From: a virus | Reading direction: 5' to 3' (one strand) | Virus record (IMG/VR): IMGVR_UViG_3300021185_003287 | Coordinates: 1 to 23,982 of that record | Length of the DNA stretch: 23,982 nt | Shown: piece by piece, positions 2,809-23,982 of the stretch | How positions within the stretch are numbered: the first letter of the stretch is position 1 | How the letters are laid out: each line of letters begins with the position of its first letter | Program-made: the position numbers and the translations under genes | Notes under the pieces: model-generated | Database searches by the model: none | What the model was told of the DNA's origin: nothing | What the model saw: the letters and a program-made list of their open reading frames with translations, nothing else

Positions 2809-2874
2809 TCAACAAGAGGAGCAAGATGTAGAGAAAACTGCTGCTGTAATTAGAATTAATGTTTTTTTAATCAT
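2809..2874 (-). CDS. 21-aa lipoprotein-like ORF; frame continues past TGA to 2680
   Basis: ATG at 2874 overlaps the stop of the upstream leftward gene as ATGA, good evidence that translation begins here. The product reads MIKKTLILITAAVFSTSC then SSC: a charged N-terminus, hydrophobic core and Cys, resembling a lipoprotein signal peptide, although the lipobox is not ideal. TGA occurs right after the third Cys. Past the TGA the same frame continues for 42 codons without a stop (beginning GKQKCVTVSHEETLQP) to a TAG at 2680. It could be a genuine mini-lipoprotein, a gene with a nonsense mutation, or a readthrough product. TGA is a normal stop elsewhere in the window, so a changed genetic code is not supported. 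Confidence 0.5.
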   Translation of the reverse strand: MIKKTLILITAAVFSTSCSSC

Positions 2875-3404
2875 GACTTATCTCCTTTAGCTTTTTCTAT
2901 TTGATCAGATGTTGGCGCTCCTTTGTCACCCTTCTTTCTCATCTTCTCTCCAGAACCTCTTTTGATTCTTTCTTTTTTCTTTCTGATATTCTCCCAAAGA
3001 CTACTGTCGGATTTTTCTTTTTCTTTTAAGATTTCATCGTGACGCTTCATGAAGGTTTTGTGATCAGGTCCAGCCATGTACAAGGTTTTACCGTCTTTGG
3101 TTTTATGGGGGTGTATACCTTTTAAACCCATTTTTTTAGCGTCTTCTAAAGCCTCCTCTTTTGTTTTAAAGTAGTGCTTACCAACATCAGGAGAAGCCTT
3201 AGAAAAGAATAAGGTACAGTCTTCTTTATTTATTGGGTCATTAATTACCACAGAAGCTTTGCTCTCAGCTTCTTCAAATTGAGAATAACAAACAGCGGCT
3301 CTTTGTTTATTGTCTTTAAATTCTTTTTTGTCGGAAAGATCGACCATGCATCGACTAATAAATTTAGATTTATTTTCTCCGTTTTTAGGCTGTGGTAATG
3401 GCAT
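2871..3404 (-). CDS. Lys-rich phage protein with RCM...AVC motif
   Basis: 177 aa. The N-terminus has the pattern 'MPLPQPKNGE..FISRCM...KEFKDNKQRAAVCYSQFEE'. From memory this short Cys motif recurs in phage head-region proteins, alone or fused to prohead protease or scaffold-like domains. The middle (HYFKTKEEALEDAKKMGLKG) is helical and the C-terminal third is very rich in Lys/Arg/Glu, suggesting a nucleic-acid- or capsid-associated tail. It follows the tail-tube-like gene in the same direction and couples to the lipoprotein ORF by ATGA. GTGTAA lies 8 nt upstream of the ATG. A structural or assembly role is inferred. Confidence 0.55.
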   Translation of the reverse strand: MPLPQPKNGENKSKFISRCMVDLSDKKEFKDNKQRAAVCYSQFEEAESKASVVINDPINKEDCTLFFSKASPDVGKHYFKTKEEALEDAKKMGLKGIHPHKTKDGKTLYMAGPDHKTFMKRHDEILKEKEKSDSSLWENIRKKKERIKRGSGEKMRKKGDKGAPTSDQIEKAKGDKS

Positions 3405-3412
3405 ATTTAAAA

Positions 3413-3418
3413 TTACAC
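3413..3418 (-). promoter_or_regulatory. GTGTAA late-promoter-like motif before 2871-3404
   Basis: On the minus strand TGTGTAATTTT stands 8 nt (counted from the end of GTGTAA) before ATG 3404. The same 11-mer occurs at the same distance before the tail-tube-like gene. Confidence 0.45.
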
Positions 3419-3467: not shown

Positions 3468-4337
3468 TTAATTAAAAATATTATTATTATCTTTTAAATT
3501 AAACGAATAATTAAAATTCATTTTTGTGTCATCATCCAAAGATGCATTTTCGGAAACTGAAATTAAAGAGCAGTTTTGAACTTGGTAGGTCTTTTCCGAA
3601 GTCTCACTAGGGTTAAATTTTATAATTAAATTTCCTTTCTCTAATACCAGACTTGATAGATCAACTCCTGTTACCTGATTCTTTAAAATAGAAACAGATA
3701 TTTCGCCATTTACGTTTGGATCAGGATACCTGTACTTGGGTACTTTTGAACCTATTCTAGTTACTGGAGTCCTATCTAAAGAGACATCTATAGATACAGA
3801 GGAAACGCAGTAGCTGGTTGTGTTAATACCTTCATCAAAATTTGTGCTTACTGTTATATTATTTGGATTTAAAAATGCTATATCAGAATCAGAAGTTTGG
3901 TTGTTGTACTCAAGATTATTTGTATCATTATAAGATATCGAATCTGCTTGAAAAGATACAGATCCTTCTGGAATCTCTCCAACCTCCAAGTTTAAGGAGT
4001 AATTTTGCAAATATGCACCGCTAATTTTATTTTCTCCAGCTAAATCTCTAATTTTAAAGTTTAGGCTACCTGTAGATAAAAAACCACTGTCGGTAAAAGC
4101 AAAAAAAGGATCGTTAGTTTTCTGCTCATTTAGAATAAAATCTAATTTTAATTCAGTAGTCTGATTAGAATTTAGAATTCTATTTTGAGTACCAAACTTG
4201 CCCAACTCAGATAACTCTGTAAATTGTTTTTGAGAATTAAACGAGCATTCTTGAATTCCGACTAGTCTGCTCTCTGTAGAGTCTGTATAATTAAAGACCT
4301 GAGTGTCGCTGGAATTCACTCTTTTAAATGTTGGCAT
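3468..4337 (-). CDS. Tail-tube-like virion structural protein
   Basis: 289 aa, rich in Ser/Asn/Thr with alternating beta-strand patterning and no catalytic motif. Segments such as IQECSFNSQKQFTELSELG, ELKLDFILNEQKTNDPFFAF, SVSIDVSLDRTPVTRIGSK and VNGEISVSIL resemble phage tail tube or tail-associated beta-sandwich proteins, which are usually 150-300 aa. This is by sequence style and context, not a confirmed match. It is the first gene of a leftward pair with a shared motif upstream (GTGTAA, 8 nt before the ATG). It diverges from the RuvB-like gene across 66 nt. A capsid decoration protein is an alternative. Confidence 0.6.
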   Translation of the reverse strand: MPTFKRVNSSDTQVFNYTDSTESRLVGIQECSFNSQKQFTELSELGKFGTQNRILNSNQTTELKLDFILNEQKTNDPFFAFTDSGFLSTGSLNFKIRDLAGENKISGAYLQNYSLNLEVGEIPEGSVSFQADSISYNDTNNLEYNNQTSDSDIAFLNPNNITVSTNFDEGINTTSYCVSSVSIDVSLDRTPVTRIGSKVPKYRYPDPNVNGEISVSILKNQVTGVDLSSLVLEKGNLIIKFNPSETSEKTYQVQNCSLISVSENASLDDDTKMNFNYSFNLKDNNNIFN

Positions 4338-4345
4338 AAAAAAAA

Positions 4346-4351
4346 TTACAC
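4346..4351 (-). promoter_or_regulatory. GTGTAA late-promoter-like motif before tail-tube-like gene
   Basis: Minus-strand TGTGTAATTTT followed by T-rich sequence to ATG 4337, with an 8-nt gap, identical in core and distance to the site before 3404. Confidence 0.45.
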
Positions 4352-4403: not shown

Positions 4404-5345
4404 ATGCAAATCAATAAAGCGTTCAGTGAGTGCATTGGTCAAGAGTCTGTAAAGAAGTCTTTAAGCTTGTATATAGATGCTTACAAAACCACAAATCGTT
4501 TGCCGTTTTTGAATCTAACTACTCAAAAGGGTGGGGGTAAGACATTCTTTGCTCGAAAGTTTAGAGAAGCTTTGGTCAATAAAAATGGTACTAGACCTCC
4601 CATGCTTGAGATCAATGGCAAGACTATTCGTAATGCTAGAGCTTTCTTTGATCAAGTCTATCCTTTGTGGGTAGAGCATAATGCTTTTTTGTTTATTGAT
4701 GAGGGACATAATCTACCAAAAGATTTGCAGGAGATTTTCTTAACTGCATTGAATGTAGACAAGAATCCAAGAAGGTCTGTGGAACTAGAGGGAATGAGGT
4801 ACGACTTCGATTTCGAGAAGATTTCTCTATGTATGGCTACAACAGATCAACAGAAACTTTCTGAGCCTCTTAGAGATAGACTGAGAGATATCTCCTTTGA
4901 AGAGTATAGCCCTGAGCAACTCTATCAGATCTTCGAAGATAATCTAGAGTGTAAAGTTGACGTAGACCCTGCTGCAAAAAAAGATATTGTTTCTGTTTTT
5001 CGTGGCAACCCAAGGGATGCGGTAGTTAAAGCTGAAGATGCTAAAGTCTTTTCTGCTGCTCGTTCTGCTAAGAAAATCACCAAGAAAGTTTGGGCTGATA
5101 TCTGTGATACGATGGCGATCCATCCCTATGGTCTTTCTAATTCTGAAATGACAGTTGTCAAGGCTTTGGCTCAAAGGGGTTCGATGAGCTTGAATGGGCT
5201 TTCATCAGTTACTGGCTTCCAAAGGGCTGCGATTCAGAGAGATTATGAATCCATGCTGGTCAAGAAGAATCTAATGAAGATAGATGGAAAGCGTACTATT
5301 ACAAAAGAAGGTAAGAGACTGGCTATTAAAATGAATTTTATATAG
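4404..5345 (+). CDS. RuvB-like AAA+ Holliday junction helicase
   Basis: 313 aa, close to the usual RuvB length (~335). Walker A is QKGGGKT (residues 41-47), Walker B FLFIDEGHN (95-103), sensor 1 CMATTD (143-148), the arginine-finger region EPLRDRLRD (154-162) and sensor 2 RGNPRDAV (200-207). A C-terminal winged-helix-like region follows (SSVTGFQRAAIQRDYESML, then ITKEGK). In bacteria RuvB drives branch migration with RuvA on Holliday junctions. No RuvA or RuvC is visible here, so the phage protein may work alone, with host RuvA, or with the ERCC4-type nuclease at 19321. A role in resolving branched replication DNA is inferred. It has its own sigma70-like promoter and no Shine-Dalgarno. Confidence 0.8.
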   Translation: MQINKAFSECIGQESVKKSLSLYIDAYKTTNRLPFLNLTTQKGGGKTFFARKFREALVNKNGTRPPMLEINGKTIRNARAFFDQVYPLWVEHNAFLFIDEGHNLPKDLQEIFLTALNVDKNPRRSVELEGMRYDFDFEKISLCMATTDQQKLSEPLRDRLRDISFEEYSPEQLYQIFEDNLECKVDVDPAAKKDIVSVFRGNPRDAVVKAEDAKVFSAARSAKKITKKVWADICDTMAIHPYGLSNSEMTVVKALAQRGSMSLNGLSSVTGFQRAAIQRDYESMLVKKNLMKIDGKRTITKEGKRLAIKMNFI

Positions 5346-5350
5346 GCAGA

Positions 5351-5641
5351 CTAACCTTTTATATTTATATTATTGAGAACCCAAGGTATGACTAGATTCT
5401 CGACGCATCGAACATACGCTTCTTCATCATTGTTTTCCATGAAGGCTAACCCCGTCATCTCAAAAATCATATGGGTAACCTCGTGAACCAGTGTCCACCA
5501 GTGCTGTTCTGGATCTTTAAGACATTTTTTATTTAATTTAATTAGCTTATCGTCCATAAAGCATTCCCCCCAGTCTTCCATCTCCTCGTAAACTACCTTT
5601 ATTTTATGATCCAGTACGTTTATCGAGGATACTTTTCTCAT
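5351..5641 (-). CDS. SprT/M78-like zinc metalloprotease-fold protein
   Basis: 96 aa. The centre carries HWWTLVHEVTHMIFEMTG, with the zinc-protease HExxH helix at residues 53-57. Downstream acidic residues (NNDEEAYVRCVENL, ~70-82) could supply the third ligand. Small HExxH proteins of this kind are frequent in phages, often labelled ImmA/IrrE-, SprT- or M78-like; substrate unknown. It lies convergent with the RuvB-like gene (5-nt gap) and divergent from 5699. The upstream motif is of the GTGTAA class, unlike its rightward neighbours. Confidence 0.65.
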   Translation of the reverse strand: MRKVSSINVLDHKIKVVYEEMEDWGECFMDDKLIKLNKKCLKDPEQHWWTLVHEVTHMIFEMTGLAFMENNDEEAYVRCVENLVIPWVLNNINIKG

Positions 5642-5650
5642 CTATATTAA

Positions 5651-5656
5651 TTACAC
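5651..5656 (-). promoter_or_regulatory. GTGTAA late-promoter-like motif before metalloprotease gene
   Basis: Minus-strand AGTGTAATTAATATAG directly precedes ATG 5641, with 9 nt between GTGTAA and ATG. Confidence 0.4.
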
Positions 5657-5698: not shown

Positions 5699-5926
5699 AT
5701 GACTGTAAAAGAAGAACTTAAAATCGTAAAGGAGACTCAGCAAATCCTTGCTGGCTTAGATTTGGAAAAAAAGAAAGTCTATGATGAGTTGGTAGAAAAG
5801 ATTCAACCTGAGCCTAGGTTAGAGAGTTCAATGTGGGATTTTGTGTATAATGGAGTTCAATGCTATATCTACGATATTGAGGATTTACTTAAAAATAGAA
5901 AAAAATCGCTTGACTCAGAAGGGTGA
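5699..5926 (+). CDS. Small helical unknown protein
   Basis: 75 aa, charged and largely helical (KEELKIVKETQQILAGLDLE) with an aromatic C-terminal part (SSMWDFVYNGVQCYIYDIED). No known domain. A strong promoter sits 6 nt upstream and no leader is predicted. It is first in a rightward series of genes running to 7053. Confidence 0.55.
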   Translation: MTVKEELKIVKETQQILAGLDLEKKKVYDELVEKIQPEPRLESSMWDFVYNGVQCYIYDIEDLLKNRKKSLDSEG

Positions 5927-16355: not shown

Positions 16356-16528
16356 AGCTTTTTTTACATATAAATGCATTTTTTATTTAGGGGAGGGGTT
16401 TTCTGAAAATTTTTACTTTTTCGCTTGACAGCATCTGAGCGGGGGGGTGGTGAACACTATAAGTAATTTCTTTTTAGAAAGGGACGGGTTTCGAGATATA
16501 ATAAAATACAAACACATTAGATAAAAAT

Positions 16529-16534
16529 GTGTAA
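16529..16534 (+). promoter_or_regulatory. GTGTAA late-promoter-like motif before PhoH gene
   Basis: TGTGTAAATAAT, with 13 nt from GTGTAA to ATG 16548. A sigma70-like TATAAT at 16496-16501 lies further up and could also serve the block. Confidence 0.4.
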
Positions 16535-16547
16535 ATAATAAAAACAA

Positions 16548-17213
16548 ATGGCAAAGGAAAATAGCTTATTGCTGGGTCATATAGAATTGACAACAAAACA
16601 AAAGGAGTTTTACGACATCATGACAGATGACAAAACAAGAATTGTATTTGTGGGTGGTCCAGCGGGTACCGCTAAGACGTTTTTGTCGGTTTACAGTGCA
16701 TTAGATTTATATAATACAGATAAGAACTTAAAAATATTATATTTGCGTAGTGTGGTGGAGAGTGCGGATAGGGGGATAGGTTTTCTGAAAGGAGACATGG
16801 ATGATAAGTTTGGGCCATATATGGCACCCCTTTTAGATAAGATTGATGAATTATTAAATAAGCCTGAAAAAGATCAATTAAAAAACAAGAAGGTACTTGA
16901 AGCAGAGCCGATTAACTTTCTGCGTGGGTGTACGTGGAGGGATAAGATAGTTATTGTGGATGAAGCCCAGAATATGAGTGTGAGAGAATTGACTACTGTG
17001 CTTACAAGGATAGGTCGAGGGAGTAAGTTATTTATATGCGGGGATAGTTTGCAAAGTGATATAAGGAATAGTGGGTTTGATAAGTTGTATTCCTTGTTTG
17101 AAGATGAGGTTAGTTCCAAAAAAGGAGTATATAGTGTATCTTTTGATAAGGCTGATGTCGTAAGAGATAAAATAATTAGTTATCTTGTAGAAAAAATTGA
17201 AAAAATAGGTTAA
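16548..17213 (+). CDS. phoH: PhoH-like P-loop ATPase
   Basis: 221 aa. Walker A GPAGTAKT (residues 37-44), PhoH-typical YLRSVVESADRGIGFLKGD (65-83), Walker B IVIVDEAQN (134-142), then the ICGDSLQSD motif (163-171). PhoH-like proteins are widespread in phages; predicted RNA-related or helicase-like ATPase, true role unclear. It opens the rightward packaging block, possibly driven by both a sigma70-like and a GTGTAA-class promoter. Confidence 0.85.
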   Translation: MAKENSLLLGHIELTTKQKEFYDIMTDDKTRIVFVGGPAGTAKTFLSVYSALDLYNTDKNLKILYLRSVVESADRGIGFLKGDMDDKFGPYMAPLLDKIDELLNKPEKDQLKNKKVLEAEPINFLRGCTWRDKIVIVDEAQNMSVRELTTVLTRIGRGSKLFICGDSLQSDIRNSGFDKLYSLFEDEVSSKKGVYSVSFDKADVVRDKIISYLVEKIEKIG

Positions 17214-17221
17214 TATTTACC

Positions 17222-17596
17222 ATGAACAAAGTTTTTTGTGTATCTTGTGGATTCAAGAATTCGTATGAGGTGACGAAACCGAAGTTTTGTGCAAACTGCG
17301 GTACGCCTATCTCTGGTGGAGTTAGGCCCAAAGAGTTGGCTCAAGAAGAAGTTGAGGATGAACCTGAAGTTTCTAGTTTGGCGAGTTTAGATTTAAGAAA
17401 GTTGCGTCGAGATATCGTCGCTGAAGCTAATACACAAAAGACAACACTAACTGATTTATGGAAATCTGCTTCTGAATCTGATGCGGTTCAAGAAGAGTAT
17501 AAGAGAAACGCTCCTAATCTTCCAGAAGGTGATGCTTTATTGAAACAAACTCAAGCTGACTGTGCCTCTTCTAGGCCCACGGAAATAGATGGATAA
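17222..17596 (+). CDS. Zinc-ribbon protein
   Basis: 124 aa. N-terminal CVSCG...CANCG gives C6-x2-C9-x13-C23-x2-C26, a four-Cys zinc ribbon. The rest is acidic and low in hydrophobics, with a helix (LASLDLRKLRRDIVAEANTQ). Zinc ribbons next to sigma-like factors may contact RNA polymerase or DNA; it overlaps the sigma gene by 8 nt, so a transcription co-factor is a reasonable guess. Confidence 0.65.
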   Translation: MNKVFCVSCGFKNSYEVTKPKFCANCGTPISGGVRPKELAQEEVEDEPEVSSLASLDLRKLRRDIVAEANTQKTTLTDLWKSASESDAVQEEYKRNAPNLPEGDALLKQTQADCASSRPTEIDG

Positions 17597-18266
17597 GGAA
17601 TATGAAGACCTTATTCCAGAGATAGAGCAAGTACTCGCTAAATATAGAGCTAAATGGCAACTAAATGCATTAACATGGTTAGACTATGATGATGTTTGTC
17701 AGATCATAAGGCTACATATTTATAATAAGCTTCATTTGTGGGATCAGAAAAGGGCGTTTAAACCTTGGGCTAGTGTTTTGATATCTAATCAGATAAAGAA
17801 TCTGATAAGGAATCATTATAGTAACTTTGCTAAACCTTGTTTACAGTGTCCTCATTATTCTGGGGGTTTAGATTGTAGTATGACTAAAAGCGGGGAACAA
17901 GATACTAGTTGTTCTTTGTTTGCTAATTGGCGCAAGAAGAAAGAGAATGCATATAATTTGAAGTTACCATTATCATTGGATACATCTATTTTTGTTTATG
18001 ACAACTTGTACGATGAGAATGTTGATTATGATAGAAAAGTGGCCAAGATACATGAGTTGGTTTTGAAGGAATTGAGTGAGAAGCATAAGATAATATATAC
18101 AATGTTATTTATTGAGAACGCTACTGATGAAGAGGTTGCTAAGAAGTTTGGTTTTAAAAAAGATACGAGTAAGAGGAAGACTCCCCGATATAAACAAATA
18201 AACAACTTAAAGAAGAAATTTTACCTGATAGCCCAAAAAGTAATTAAGAAAGACGATTTAACATGA
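17589..18266 (+). CDS. Sigma-70-like factor with Cys4 insertion
   Basis: 225 aa. Residues ~30-77 fit sigma region 2 (TWLDYDDVCQIIRLHIYNKL, then AFKPWASVLISNQIKNLIRN). Residues ~160-195 form a region-4-like helix-turn-helix (LKELSEKHKIIYTMLFIENA, then TDEEVAKKFGF). Between them lie Cys84, 87, 96 and 108, probably a zinc knuckle, absent from ordinary sigma factors. It most resembles small phage late sigma factors in role (compare T4 gp55). It probably directs host RNA polymerase to late promoters; GTGTAA sites are candidates. ATGA coupling to the next gene. Confidence 0.7.
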   Translation: MDKEYEDLIPEIEQVLAKYRAKWQLNALTWLDYDDVCQIIRLHIYNKLHLWDQKRAFKPWASVLISNQIKNLIRNHYSNFAKPCLQCPHYSGGLDCSMTKSGEQDTSCSLFANWRKKKENAYNLKLPLSLDTSIFVYDNLYDENVDYDRKVAKIHELVLKELSEKHKIIYTMLFIENATDEEVAKKFGFKKDTSKRKTPRYKQINNLKKKFYLIAQKVIKKDDLT

Positions 18267-19324
18267 ACAACTTTAAACTATCAGAAGAACAGGAGAAGCA
18301 GATTTTAAAAGAGTTCAAAAAGAACCCTGACTTGATGTCTATCACCCGAAAAGTATTTAAAGACGAGAATATTGACGGTAGGTCTAAACAGGGGAGAGCG
18401 GTGAGGGCTTTCCTAGCCAAACAAAATAGAGACTACAATACTTCTCTAGTCCCTAAAGCAGATAACCTAGAACTAACTCAAGAACAGAAGTCCTTCCTTA
18501 TGAGTGATAATATCCATTCGGATATGAATGCTTTAGAAGTTGCCCGATTAACGTTTAAGGATAGAGATGTCGCAAGCCTTAGCATTAAACATAGGTTGAT
18601 TGTAGATTTCCTCAAAACTTATCGCCCTGAAGTAGTTGATGATAACGAGATTGTAACAAAAGAAAAATGGATAGCCCCAAAAGCTTTGTCTCGCGTTATC
18701 TCTAAAGTCAACACTTTTTGTGGTACCTCTTTCGAGGAGACAACGATTCAAAACAAACAAAAGAAGTTAATGGATCAATTGATGATCTATCTTCGTAGTC
18801 CTAGATTTAATCACTTTATAAACCAGTACTCTACCTTAGCAGACAGAGACCTTTTTGAAAGCGAGTTTGTTAGGGCTATTTGGGACAAGCCTGACCTCAC
18901 TAATGATGAGTTGAACCTGTACGTGACCGTATGTACCAACTACGTGCGCCAAAAACACATCCAGCAGCGCATTGACAAGCTTAACGCACTACTAGACGAC
19001 CAAGACAACGAAAGAGACATTACAATGCGTCTGACAGAGATTATCAAGGCTACGAGTGATGAACTTAATCAATGCGAAAAAAGGATAGAGTCTCTTACAA
19101 AAGATTTGAATGGTTCTAGAACTGCAAGACTCAAAGCCAAGGGAGAAGAAAATGGATCTATCTTTGCTTTAGTGGAAGCCTTCCAAGAAAGAGAAGAGCG
19201 TGATCGAATGATCATGATGGCAGAGCTTCAAAACAAACTGATTGAAGAGGAAGCTGATAGACTTGAAAGTATGGATGATTATAAGGCTAGAATCCTAGGT
19301 ATTTCTAAAAAAGAACTATTATGA
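18263..19324 (+). CDS. Coiled-coil protein with duplicated N-terminal module; small terminase candidate
   Basis: 353 aa. Residues ~5-52 and ~69-118 are a diverged duplication (LSEEQEKQIL...ITRKVFKD...RAVRAFL versus LTQEQKSFLM...VARLTFKD...RLIVDFL), each HTH-like. The centre is mixed; residues ~235-345 are a long charged coiled coil. Position before terL and possible DNA-binding repeats make a small terminase subunit conceivable, but there is no clear TerS signature. ATGA overlaps at both ends. Confidence 0.5.
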   Translation: MNNFKLSEEQEKQILKEFKKNPDLMSITRKVFKDENIDGRSKQGRAVRAFLAKQNRDYNTSLVPKADNLELTQEQKSFLMSDNIHSDMNALEVARLTFKDRDVASLSIKHRLIVDFLKTYRPEVVDDNEIVTKEKWIAPKALSRVISKVNTFCGTSFEETTIQNKQKKLMDQLMIYLRSPRFNHFINQYSTLADRDLFESEFVRAIWDKPDLTNDELNLYVTVCTNYVRQKHIQQRIDKLNALLDDQDNERDITMRLTEIIKATSDELNQCEKRIESLTKDLNGSRTARLKAKGEENGSIFALVEAFQEREERDRMIMMAELQNKLIEEEADRLESMDDYKARILGISKKELL

Positions 19325-20274
19325 GTGATTTTACCTGTAAAGAATGTGGAAAGGAGTTCGACAATAGGAAAAGCTTTCACATGCACCTGAAAGCACACTC
19401 TTTGTTTATTGGAGACTATTATGTAAAGCATTTCCAGAAAAAGGATTTGTACACGGGTTCTTTGCTCCCTTTTAAGAATTATGACCAATACTTTAGAGAA
19501 GATTTCTCCTGCAAGGAAAATTATCTTAATTGGCTTAAAATCACACCTTCAGAGACCTGCAAGGAATATGTTGAAAACAAAGCTAAATCTAAATTCACAG
19601 ATAAGAAGATAACGATATCCCCTCCTAATTTGTTTTATCAATTATCGGACATGGCCGACATTCAAACCTATAGGAAGTTATGGGGGTCTTATTCTAATTT
19701 TACAAAAGAACTGAATTTAAAAAACCAGTTTTGCAGAAACCTCCCAAAAACCTTTTGGGAATCCTCTCACGAGGATATCTCTATTTTCGTAGACACAAGG
19801 GAAAAGCTCCCCTTTACTTTCAAGAACGGCTTAGTAAACAAGTTGGACTTTGGCGACTATACTGCTGGAGGAGAACATTATTCAAAAACATTCATAGATA
19901 GAAAATCACAAGATGACTTCAGACAAACATTTGGTAAAGATATTAAAAGGTTCAGGAGGGAAATGGATCGCTGTGTCCAGTTTAATTCTTACATGTTCAT
20001 TGTTGTCGAGTCTTCTATTGAAAAAATCGAAGAAGACAACAAAATATCGAAGTTTAAATCGAACCTAGGTTATGTATGGCATAATTTGAGGGGTCTTATG
20101 GTAGACTACCCAGAAAACATACAATTTATATTCGCCTACAATAGGAAAGGCGCTAAAAAGCTAATACCCAAAATCCTTTATTATGGTCAGGATTTATGGG
20201 AGGTTGATTTACAGTACCATATAGACAATAAAGTTTATGGCTTGGAACAAAGGAAAACAGAGATATCGCACTGA
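19321..20274 (+). CDS. C2H2 zinc finger-ERCC4-type nuclease fusion
   Basis: 317 aa. N-terminal C2H2 finger: C6-x2-C9-x12-H22-x3-H26 (CKECGKEF...MHLKAH). Residues 27-130 form an aromatic linker domain (FIGDYYVKHFQ, LLPFKNYDQYF). The C-terminal half has the ERCC4/XPF nuclease motifs: VDTRE (157-161), DFGDY (176-180), FIDRKS (191-196) and a basic FRREM helix (211-215). ERCC4-fold enzymes cut branched DNA. Sitting directly before, and overlapping, terL suggests trimming or resolving branched DNA for packaging, analogous in role to T4 endonuclease VII. It may cooperate with the RuvB-like ATPase. Confidence 0.75.
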   Translation: MSDFTCKECGKEFDNRKSFHMHLKAHSLFIGDYYVKHFQKKDLYTGSLLPFKNYDQYFREDFSCKENYLNWLKITPSETCKEYVENKAKSKFTDKKITISPPNLFYQLSDMADIQTYRKLWGSYSNFTKELNLKNQFCRNLPKTFWESSHEDISIFVDTREKLPFTFKNGLVNKLDFGDYTAGGEHYSKTFIDRKSQDDFRQTFGKDIKRFRREMDRCVQFNSYMFIVVESSIEKIEEDNKISKFKSNLGYVWHNLRGLMVDYPENIQFIFAYNRKGAKKLIPKILYYGQDLWEVDLQYHIDNKVYGLEQRKTEISH

Positions 20275-22126
20275 CTTCTCTGCTAAGGATTTCAACTCTT
20301 ACTTGAGATCTTTTGAAGGCGACTTGCCCGACGAAGAAGCTAAGTATTTTTTGTATAAGTTCTTGAGGGCTAATATTGCATTTACCTCAGAATTATTTTT
20401 GGGAGTAAGATTATTCCCTTTCCAAGCAATGGCTATCAAGGGGATGATGGTCTCTGACTATTCTATGTTCGTATTCTCTCGCGGTATGTCTAAGACGTTC
20501 TCCACAGCGATTTATGTATTACTTGAGTGTCTACTAAACCCTAATGCCAATATAGGTGTTATTGCAGGTAGCTTTAGGCAATCAAAACAAATCTTCCAAA
20601 AGATGGAGGATATACTAGCCAAACCCGAAGCGAAGCTTGCAAAAGAATGTGGGGTAAAGATAACTAAAGGAACTGACCAGTGGACTTTGAAGATAGGTAA
20701 CAGTAGAGCTATAGCGTTACCTTTAGCAAATGGAGAAAGGTTGCGTGGATTTCGATTTAATCGCATTGTACTTGATGAGTTCTTAACTATCCCCGAAAAG
20801 ATTTTCAACGAAGTTATCATCCCTTTCCTTGGCGTAGTGGAAAATCCTATCGAGCGAGAAGAACTTCACAAATTAGAATCGCGCTTAATCGAGAAAGGCG
20901 AGATGCAAGAAGAAGAAAGATATGTATGGCCTAATAACAAATTAATAATACTTTCATCTCCCTCTTTTAAATTCGAATATATGTACAAATTGTACAAAAA
21001 ATACGAGGGGCTAATATTCGGGGAATTAAATCAAGATGATGAAGATGAACCAGCTGCTGATGAGGCTTATAGACTAATAATGCAATTGAGTTATGATTGT
21101 GCTCCTACTAGGCTATACGATCAAAACCTGCTTAAACAAGCTAAGGCTACAATGTCTGAGATGCAGTTTAAACGAGAGTTTGGCGCTCAGTTTGTGGATG
21201 AGAGTGACGGCTACTTCAGGTTATCTAAAATGGCTGCTTGTACTATAGCAGATGGAGAATTTCCTGCTGTTGAGATTGTTGGAAATCCAAGTGACGACTA
21301 TATTCTTGCTTTTGACCCTAACTGGGCGGGAAACACAAGTGCTGACCACTTTGCAATGCATGTGTTTAAAGTTATGAGGGAAGAACAGAAGGTTTGTCTT
21401 GTTCATAGCTACGCAGTAGCTGGAGTATCTTTAAAAGAACATATGAGATATTTCCTTTATCTAATTCAACACTTTAATATTGTTGGTATCTGCGGAGACT
21501 ACAACGGAGGTGTACAATTTATAAATTCTTGTAACGAGAGTCAGATATTTAAAGATGCTAGTATCAACATAGGAGTTATTGAAGTAGAACTAGAAAAACC
21601 TGATCAATGGCACTCTGATATCCTAAACTTTAAAAATCAATATAATCAAAAAGAAAGAAAGTATTGTATCTTAAGAAAACCTACATCTAATTGGATTAGA
21701 AATGGTAACGAGATGCTGCAAGCAGCAATAGACCATAAAAGAATACTGTTTGGGTCTAGGGCGATAGACGGCCACTTTGACGAGCAAAGAAAGAAGAACA
21801 TTCCTATAGATGAAATAAAGTGGGATCATAAGATTACAGCTGCCTCAAAAGGAGCTAAAATGATTGATTTTATAGATCAACAGAAAAGCAATATAGAACT
21901 TACAAAGTCAGAATGCGCTAACATTGAAGTTGCGACAAACCCTCAAGGTTCTCAATCTTTTAATTTACCTCAAAACATCAGAAGACAAAAAGGACCAAAT
22001 AGAGCAAGAAAAGACTCTTACTCTGCTTTAATATTAGGAAACTGGTTCGCAAAGGTTTATTTTGACTCGTTGCATATTAAGGCGGAAAAGAGACCTACCG
22101 CTACATTTATTCCATTCACAATTTGA
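20237..22126 (+). CDS. terL: Terminase large subunit
   Basis: 629 aa. ATPase: Walker A-like SRGMSKT (81-87), Walker B RIVLDE (176-181), motif III LIILSSP (236-242). RNase H-like nuclease: ILAFDPNW (D360), GICGDYNGG (D421) and a third acidic candidate in KDSYSALILGN (D593). It cuts concatemers and pumps DNA into the procapsid with the portal. The Walker A lacks the usual Gly before Lys (Ser instead), a variation known in phage terminases. It begins 38 nt inside the nuclease gene, so expression is coupled. Confidence 0.9.
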   Translation: MAWNKGKQRYRTDFSAKDFNSYLRSFEGDLPDEEAKYFLYKFLRANIAFTSELFLGVRLFPFQAMAIKGMMVSDYSMFVFSRGMSKTFSTAIYVLLECLLNPNANIGVIAGSFRQSKQIFQKMEDILAKPEAKLAKECGVKITKGTDQWTLKIGNSRAIALPLANGERLRGFRFNRIVLDEFLTIPEKIFNEVIIPFLGVVENPIEREELHKLESRLIEKGEMQEEERYVWPNNKLIILSSPSFKFEYMYKLYKKYEGLIFGELNQDDEDEPAADEAYRLIMQLSYDCAPTRLYDQNLLKQAKATMSEMQFKREFGAQFVDESDGYFRLSKMAACTIADGEFPAVEIVGNPSDDYILAFDPNWAGNTSADHFAMHVFKVMREEQKVCLVHSYAVAGVSLKEHMRYFLYLIQHFNIVGICGDYNGGVQFINSCNESQIFKDASINIGVIEVELEKPDQWHSDILNFKNQYNQKERKYCILRKPTSNWIRNGNEMLQAAIDHKRILFGSRAIDGHFDEQRKKNIPIDEIKWDHKITAASKGAKMIDFIDQQKSNIELTKSECANIEVATNPQGSQSFNLPQNIRRQKGPNRARKDSYSALILGNWFAKVYFDSLHIKAEKRPTATFIPFTI

Positions 22127-22155: not shown

Positions 22156-22161
22156 GTGTAA
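22156..22161 (+). promoter_or_regulatory. GTGTAA late-promoter-like motif before portal gene
   Basis: TTTAGTGTAACAATTGTTAA leads into ATG 22173, with 11 nt between GTGTAA and ATG. AACAATTGTT is an additional 10-bp palindrome. Confidence 0.45.
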
Positions 22162-22172
22162 CAATTGTTAAC

Positions 22173-23982
22173 ATGGAGGAAAAGCGCAAATACACGAAGA
22201 GATCTGAGTATTGGAATAAATTCAAAAGCAATGCTTCTAACAACAATTTAGATGAGTTATTTAAAGAGAATACTGAGTCTGATATTAATCCAGAGTTAGT
22301 TGGAGAATCTTTATATGAAAGTGTGGCTTCTAGGCTTCAACCTTCTAATAGAACTGCAAGCAGAAGTAATAATGTATCTCAAAACTTTGTAAAGGGTCGT
22401 TTTAAAAATATAGATGATGGACTTCTCCCATTTGATTATTCTCGTGATTCTGTAGACGCTAGAGATGCTATACAATTATGTCAAAAAGCTTACTTTAATG
22501 TACCTGCATTTCGTAGTACTATCGACATGCTTTCAGACTTCGCTGACTCTGATATCTACTTAGAAGGTGGTACAGAAAAATCTCGCAAGTTTGTAAACGC
22601 TTGGTTTAAGAGAATCAAGATACATGATATAAAATCTCAATATTTCCGAGAGTACTATCGATCAGGTAATGTTTTCTTATATAGAATCGATGGCAAACTT
22701 AAAATGCAAGATTCAGGTCAAATCTTAGAGACCTATGGTGCTACTAAAAAAAATGCACCTATACCCATTAAGTATATGGTTATCAATCCAACCGATGTTG
22801 CTACTAAGGGTTCTATTTCTTTTAATGATTTCCAATATTTCAAAGTACTTACTCCTTATGAAATTTCTAGATTAAAGAATCCTCAAACAGATCATGAGAA
22901 AGAGATGTATAATTCTCTGCCAGAAGATGTCCAGATTAGGATTAAAAACAATCAAGCTTCCACCTCTGAAAGACTGTATATAAGATTAGCATCTGATTTA
23001 TTACATGTGGTGTTCGCTAAGAAACAAGACTATGAGCCTTTGTCGATTCCTTATGGATTCACAGTGTTAGACGACATTAATAAGAAATTAGAGTTAAAAA
23101 AGATAGATCAAGCGATTTCTCGATCCATTGAAAATGTTGTACTTTTAGTCACTATGGGTGCAGAGCCAGATAAAGGCGGGGTAAATCACAAGGCTTTAGC
23201 CGCAATGCAAAACATCTTTAAGAACCAAAGCGTTGGTCGAGTGCTTGTTTCAGATTATACAACTAAAGCAGACTTTGTTATACCTGACTTGCGAAAAGTT
23301 GTTGGGCCTGAGAAGTACGAAGTTCTAAATAGAGACATTCAAGAGGGATTGCAAAATGTGCTTATTGGAGACAATAAGTATGCCGACGGCCAATTAAAGA
23401 TGAAGATCTTTATTCAACGTTTGGAAGAATCTCGCGATTTATTTATAAAAGAATTTCTCCAGCCAGAAATCCGTAGAATCTGTAAGTCTATTGGTATGAG
23501 ATCTTGGCCTGAAGCAAAGTTGGTTAAAACAGACACATTGGATAATTCTGATATGACAAAACTTGCTACCAGAATGATGGAGCTTGGAGTTATAACCCCA
23601 GAGCAAGGAATGAAGGTTGTACATACAGGTGTTTTCCCAAAATCTGTAGACATGGACAAAGCTCAAGAAGCGTTTAAACAAAAAAGAGAAGAGGGTTACT
23701 ACATGCCTCTTGTTAATAGCGTTAATCTATATCAAGAAGAAAAAGATGGCGGTTCCGAACCTGAAGTAAAAGAAAAGGCTGCTCCTATAGCTCCATCTGG
23801 AGGTAGACCAATTGGAGTATCTAATTCAAGCTTTTCGAAGAAACACATTATCAAGGCTACTCAAAAAGTTAGTGAATTTGAGTTAAAAGCATATAGAGAC
23901 TTTGCTCTCAAATATGGTATAGACGAACTAGATGAGCAAAGAAAAGATCTTGTGTCTCAAGCTTGTGAAGCAATTATAGTTT
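22173..23982 (+). CDS. Portal protein, 3' end outside window
   Basis: Open from ATG 22173 to the right edge (603 codons). Portal-type features: early acidic segment, PAFRSTIDMLSDFADSDIYL, YFREYYRSGNVFLYRIDGKL, HVVFAKKQDYEPLSIPYGF, and the mid/late 'IQEGLQNVLIGDNKYADGQL...RLEESRDLFIKEFL' helix region typical of portal stem/wing. Position straight after terL fits. It forms the dodecameric portal ring for DNA passage. The last ~80 residues after a Pro/Gly-rich linker may be an extra domain. No Shine-Dalgarno upstream. Confidence 0.8.
   Translation, partial: MEEKRKYTKRSEYWNKFKSNASNNNLDELFKENTESDINPELVGESLYESVASRLQPSNRTASRSNNVSQNFVKGRFKNIDDGLLPFDYSRDSVDARDAIQLCQKAYFNVPAFRSTIDMLSDFADSDIYLEGGTEKSRKFVNAWFKRIKIHDIKSQYFREYYRSGNVFLYRIDGKLKMQDSGQILETYGATKKNAPIPIKYMVINPTDVATKGSISFNDFQYFKVLTPYEISRLKNPQTDHEKEMYNSLPEDVQIRIKNNQASTSERLYIRLASDLLHVVFAKKQDYEPLSIPYGFTVLDDINKKLELKKIDQAISRSIENVVLLVTMGAEPDKGGVNHKALAAMQNIFKNQSVGRVLVSDYTTKADFVIPDLRKVVGPEKYEVLNRDIQEGLQNVLIGDNKYADGQLKMKIFIQRLEESRDLFIKEFLQPEIRRICKSIGMRSWPEAKLVKTDTLDNSDMTKLATRMMELGVITPEQGMKVVHTGVFPKSVDMDKAQEAFKQKREEGYYMPLVNSVNLYQEEKDGGSEPEVKEKAAPIAPSGGRPIGVSNSSFSKKHIIKATQKVSEFELKAYRDFALKYGIDELDEQRKDLVSQACEAIIV

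Follow-up and report, generated by a model that had tools for sequence, protein, structure and literature searches.

The question raised by this locus is what a phage does with a sigma-like protein that has four cysteine residues between its regions 2 and 4 and is encoded directly after, and in overlap with, a zinc-ribbon protein. The window analyzed here is a 23,982-base IMG/VR virus record, for which simple ORF calls were used as genes. A sequence-only reading of this DNA had proposed a two-part late transcription apparatus, in which zinc modules replace the usual sigma domain 3 or co-activator contacts. The answer that we regard as probable is a phage-specific late sigma factor, which would act on the host RNA polymerase at GTGTAA promoters with the zinc-ribbon protein (ZnR) as its probable co-factor. 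The genes of the cassette containing this pair, together with the cysteine insert, are the following.

16548-17213, + strand: PhoH-like ATPase, first gene of the cassette (Pfam PhoH, E 5e-49)
17222-17596, + strand: zinc-ribbon protein ZnR, 124 residues (Cys invariance; position directly upstream of sigma)
17589-18266, + strand: sigma-70-family protein, 225 residues (Pfam, AlphaFold model, structural matches, 198 distinct homologs)
17832-17918, + strand: codons of the Cys4 insert, residues 82-110 (Lys82 to Leu110), with Cys84, Cys87, Cys96 and Cys108 (Cys invariance in homologs)
18263-19324, + strand: X353, a 353-residue protein in conserved order (no confident family)
19321-20274, + strand: ERCC4-type nuclease with an N-terminal C2H2 finger (PHROG 3490, E 3e-9; weak Pfam zf-C2H2 and ERCC4)
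20237-22126, + strand: terminase large subunit, TerL (Pfam Terminase_6N, E 8e-8; PHROG 2, E 5e-29)
22173-23981, + strand: portal protein, running off the window (tblastn matches to portal proteins annotated in Slashvirus, E as low as 8e-9)

The sigma-like and ZnR reading frames described earlier were both recovered, and they overlap by 8 bases. The Pfam family Sigma70_r2 matches residues 30-76 of the sigma protein (E 4.5e-6, 26.8 bits, above the gathering cut-off of 24) and also exceeds its cut-off in 15 of 16 large relatives. The match to Sigma70_r4 at residues 158-188 is weak (E 0.07, below cut-off). Cys84, Cys87, Cys96 and Cys108 are indeed located between these two matches, with the spacing CX2C-X8-CX11C. 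Their conservation in an alignment of homologs had been set beforehand as the refuting test, and the result was decisive. All four are invariant in 43/43 distinct close homologs and in 198/198 distinct homologs, which have a mean pairwise identity of 52% and a minimum of 33%. The fifth cysteine, Cys37, is free to vary among the 198 homologs (Cys, Ser, Lys, Glu or Ala). The insert is variable in length, and the clade with a longer insert still has all four Cys residues. No Pfam or PHROG family above threshold was found for the insert. It is probably a metal site, with zinc as the likely ligand and an Fe-S cluster as a possible alternative to zinc.

The structure of the sigma protein was predicted with AlphaFold from a 69-sequence alignment (pLDDT 80), replacing an earlier model based on 18 sequences (pLDDT 72); all predictions were of single chains. 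The model consists of a sigma2 domain (residues 1-78), the insert with its helix (residues 82-122) and a sigma4 domain (residues 146-225). The Cys4 module is composed of short strands, residues 82-108, followed by a helix, residues 109-122, and a disordered linker spans residues 127-143. The insert is modeled with modest confidence (pLDDT about 70-80), and the model does not define how the domains are placed with respect to one another (pTM 0.40). The sigma2 domain matches that of an ECF sigma factor (5uxx; 72 residues, 2.1 Å). The sigma4 domain matches domain 4 of sigmaA (4g6d; 58 residues, 1.4 Å) and also region 4 of E. coli sigmaE on -35 DNA (2h27; 69 residues, 2.9 Å), the overall range being 1.4-2.9 Å across 58-70 residues. 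Both features of the sigma-70 family, the region 2 domain and the region 4 helix-turn-helix, are thus present in the model.

The ECF (group 4) sigma factors likewise have sigma2, a linker and sigma4 without sigma3, an arrangement seen here in the model, and the top structural matches include MTB SigL and SigH and E. coli sigmaE. The present protein differs from the ECF group in the extra Cys4 module after region 2.4, in putative promoters without a detectable -35 element, and in having no membrane anti-sigma or zinc-binding anti-sigma (ZAS). The earlier idea that the insert replaces sigma domain 3 is upheld in position only, directly after region 2.4. An ECF-like architecture already lacks sigma3, and therefore nothing need be replaced by the insert.

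The insert may be compared with the CorE-like sigmas of Myxococcus, in which the sigma2-sigma4 linker contains a CXC and a Cys-rich domain is found at the C-terminus (PMC8999054). The linker cysteines of CorE-type ECF sigmas are needed for metal-dependent activity (PMC8999054). With cysteines in the same linker here, the Cys4 module could be a switch (Fe-S, redox or metal) that renders the sigma factor conditional in the CorE manner. However, the C-terminal Cys-rich domain that CorE also requires is absent here, no C-terminal cysteines being present, and the CXC of the CorE linker compares with a four-cysteine CX2C-X8-CX11C insert. The constant presence of the module in a lytic-type cassette also suggests a structural site. 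We therefore consider a switch of this kind quite unlikely.

The upstream overlapping gene had been read as a zinc ribbon, and this assignment is borne out by its cysteines. Residues 1-30 of ZnR contain the pattern CX2C-X13-CX2C, in which Cys6, Cys9, Cys23 and Cys26 are invariant in 182/182 distinct neighbors. Beyond the ribbon, the clade consensus shows an acidic variable linker (median net charge of -4 for residues 31-90), a short conserved TLxDL-like motif and a conserved C-S/A-S-S-R tail. ZnR was detected upstream of the sigma gene in 266 of 286 loci, and 15 others begin too close to the contig end. Of the remaining five, L163, L246 and L247 do have the ribbon, which was missed by the ORF rule, while L005 and L070 begin inside it, L070 being a longer cut of the contig of L005. 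ZnR is thus directly upstream of sigma in every relative whose contig extends far enough. This strict co-conservation makes it plausible that ZnR is a co-activator or co-factor of the sigma protein, although the conservation of gene order is not specific to the ZnR-sigma pair and spans the whole terminase cassette. A fusion of the two genes, sought as evidence of interaction, was not found.

Overlapping pairs of a sigma gene and a small-protein gene are typical of sigma/anti-sigma pairs. The overlap seen here, together with the acidic tail, could indicate that the sigma protein is the GTGTAA late sigma and that ZnR is an anti-sigma, or a redox or metal sensor, holding it until late infection. 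However, anti-sigma genes are usually located downstream of the sigma gene, while ZnR is upstream. The signature of zinc anti-sigmas is HX3CX2C, whereas the ribbon is CX2C-X13-CX2C without an invariant His. The identity of ZnR as a ZAS protein was rejected, since HX3CX2C is absent and no invariant His occurs in 182 sequences. An anti-sigma or sensor role for ZnR is accordingly held to be improbable, and the co-factor role is preferred.

The cassette order PhoH-ZnR-sigma-X353-ERCC4-TerL-portal is identical in every listed locus, as far as the contig extends, and PhoH is found in all, or almost all, of the relatives with a contig long enough to include it. The ERCC4-type nuclease with its C2H2-like finger is always flanked by X353 and the terminase. 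Viral contigs were scanned with the window sigma and two distant relatives, which gave 63, 389, 92 and at least 589 confirmed matches, and at most 80 loci per scan were taken into the comparison. Bacterial genome bins contributed two of the loci, one of them from a bin labeled Flavobacteriaceae. The window sigma has no tblastn match in 50,697 phage records (INPHARED), and a distant sigma relative gave a chance-level match only (E 0.7) against the same phages. The sigma cassette belongs to a widespread family of uncultured marine phages; it occurs in hundreds of IMG/VR contigs, yet is absent from the cultured phages of the INPHARED set searched.

Two other elements of the window may be mentioned. 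The frame at 4404-5345 encodes an AAA+ ATPase, RuvB-like or clamp-loader-like, with a C-terminal winged helix. A single-copy G-rich element at 16439-16462, GCGGGGGGGTGGTGAACACTATAA, preceded by TTGAC, is located upstream of the PhoH-terminase operon and is kept in window-like relatives. It is a candidate packaging (cos/pac) or regulatory site.

Comparison of the sequences upstream of PhoH in relatives revealed the hexamer GTGTAA a short distance before the ATG, where it is kept in most of them, down to 41% PhoH identity. The promoter-like GTGTAA elements of the window are the following.

16529-16534, + strand: GTGTAA of the PhoH-ZnR-sigma-X-ERCC4-TerL operon, 19 nt before the PhoH ATG
22156-22161, + strand: GTGTAA, 17 nt before the portal gene
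2434-2439, + strand: GTGTAA, 15 nt before ORF 2449-2700
3413-3418, - strand: GTGTAA, 14 nt before ORF 2871-3404 (-)
4346-4351, - strand: GTGTAA, 14 nt before ORF 3468-4337 (-)
5651-5656, - strand: GTGTAA, 15 nt before ORF 5351-5641 (-)

The motif was assessed by an unbiased ranking of all 4096 hexamers in the interval 10-28 nt before gene starts. Across related loci GTGTAA ranks first of 4096 (177 genes vs 5.9 expected); as related sequences contribute to this count, its P value should not be taken literally. In the 118-kb relative G001 it is second, almost tied with the overlapping AGTGTA (11 vs 0.55 expected, P 1.3e-11). In the window alone it is third, after AATTAA and GTAATT (5 vs 0.17 expected, P 6e-7). 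All three sigma clades are enriched (clade A, 76 vs 4.8 expected; B, 92 vs 3.9; C, 110 vs 4.3). The logo of 150 non-redundant sites reads AGTGTA(A/T) followed by AT-rich bases, and the spacing from motif to ATG peaks at 14-16 nt. No -35 signal was found in these 150 sites. A weak signal, T-rich or ACTTT, is seen about 16 nt upstream and could be a degenerate -35 element.

The distribution of the motif over gene modules was followed in G001. It occurs before the tape measure, tail fiber and structural protein genes, the PhoH-terminase operon and other virion-module genes, while DNA polymerase III alpha, primase, DnaB, RecA and the sugar genes are without it. With modules delimited by us from position and annotation, 13/35 genes of the late modules have the motif vs 1/40 in the replication and metabolism modules (Fisher P 1.5e-4). 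The proposed role in late transcription is thus supported by a promoter-like motif that is family-wide and concentrated on late genes. In the literature searched, no relevant paper on a published GTGTAA phage promoter was found. Bacillus phage Slash and Microcystis phage MaeS also have a sigma-like gene upstream of a distantly related terminase and portal. However, their sigma proteins are without the Cys4 insert, no zinc ribbon adjoins them, and GTGTAW does not precede their genes (the GTGTAA motif before 0/43).

A second promoter class is found before other genes. At -38 to -33 from the ATG, TTGAC is enriched both in G001 (10 vs 1.0 expected) and in the window (4 vs 0.24), and the peak of TAnAAT is at -14 to -9. 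GTGTAA shares its ATG register (about -20 to -9) with the TAnAAT of these TTGAC/TAnAAT promoters, and therefore occupies the -10 position. At 5699, 7104, 14178 (-) and 15838 (-) of the window, and also in G001, TTGAC or TTTAC is found with TAnAAT, phased very near the ATG. With TTGAC/TAnAAT so near the ATG, many transcripts would have little or no leader. A scan of the whole contig for the TTGACA/TATAAT consensus gave counts not above shuffles, only the ATG-phased TTGAC being enriched. The TAnnTTTG host promoter class of Bacteroidota was rejected, as it is not enriched. Most close relatives keep a TATAAT, at 16497-16502 in the window, which precedes the PhoH-operon GTGTAA by about 30 nt. It may be a promoter for the host sigma, from which synthesis of the phage sigma would begin ahead of the late switch.

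The link between the sigma protein and GTGTAA is a co-occurrence within one phage lineage. For this reason the motif could instead be read by a host alternative sigma or an unrecognized phage activator, with the Cys4 sigma serving another promoter class. A full sigma4 domain would be expected to read a -35 element, yet the GTGTAA promoters are without one, and three large contigs encode further region-2 proteins. However, the Cys4 sigma is the sole region-2 protein in 13/16 large contigs, and the motif is kept across all three sigma clades. The second position is the most critical base of the host -10 element, and in TGTAAT it is broken by a G. Another reader of GTGTAA is thus held to be improbable, and the Cys4 sigma is preferred. 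The exceptions, G019 (L159), G021 (L151) and G018 (L181), are contigs of 104-211 kb with one or two additional sigma region-2 proteins.

No genes for the RNA polymerase beta and beta' subunits were found in the contigs of large relatives searched, where positive controls were detected, and the sigma protein therefore most likely uses the host core enzyme. A search for a single-subunit phage RNA polymerase gave no match, its controls being silent as well. We infer the link of sigma to GTGTAA, the metal, the binding of ZnR and the use of the host core. In the proposed mechanism, the ECF-like sigma, with its Cys4 module (probably zinc-binding) after region 2.4, would bind the host core. It would direct the polymerase to a single -10-like element, (A)GTGTA(A/T) with AT-rich DNA, about 14-19 nt before the ATG, and recognition of GTGTAW would turn on the virion-building (late) genes. 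On the simplest account, the remaining genes would be transcribed from TTGAC/TAnAAT promoters read by the host sigma, before the Cys4 sigma redirects the polymerase. The operon of the sigma gene itself carries GTGTAA (16529), which may provide positive feedback. The Cys4 module would sit at the position of domain 3.0 of primary sigmas and may help to read the GTG of GTGTAA where there is no -35 element. ZnR is probably a dedicated co-factor in the same holoenzyme, its ribbon docking on polymerase or DNA and its acidic tail with the conserved short motif docking on sigma.

Several known phage systems can be compared with this arrangement. In SPO1, gp33 and gp34 are two small proteins of neighboring genes, both needed for late transcription, and split the sigma functions between them, while here one protein has both sigma domains. 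The late promoter motif of T4 is TATAAATA, compared with GTGTAW here. Late transcription in T4 uses the gp55 sigma, the gp33 co-activator and the gp45 sliding clamp with the host RNA polymerase, and gp55 is described as having a sigma2 homology domain and a helix-loop-helix alone (PMC7892883). Common to both systems are a divergent sigma of phage origin that has a region-2 domain, a second, small phage protein and late promoters with one -10-like element and no -35; the host polymerase is used in T4, and its use is what we infer here. However, sigma4 is present in our protein, while the T4 sigma is without it and the flap role is taken by gp33. The Cys4 insert is a further difference, as is a zinc-ribbon partner instead of the helical gp33. 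The analogy with T4 gp55/gp33 is functional and not one of membership.

The C-terminus of the sigma protein (18190-18263) has a conserved D-I/L-F-Y-E tail in clades B and C and E-D-L in clade A, with Asp223 conserved. This tail loosely resembles clamp-binding motifs and is a candidate lead. A DnaN-type sliding clamp was not found in the relatives searched, where the controls were detected; the T4-type clamp PF02916 gave no match in relatives, and its controls were silent as well.

A more far-reaching reading would make the Cys4 module a promoter-reading metal domain in the place of sigma3.0 and ZnR a detached TFIIB-like protein, and the two together would allow initiation by a bacterial RNA polymerase at GTGTAW promoters that have a -10 element only. 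Such a late sigma system, in two parts and dependent on metal, would be previously undescribed and used by a very abundant marine phage lineage; we hold it to be speculative and rather unlikely. The computationally defined late promoter provides an early/late gene map for the lineage and a testable sigma-promoter pair. If the proposed role is true, late transcription independent of a -35 element arose among phages in a form unlike that of T4, one in which metal-binding modules are part of the initiation machinery.
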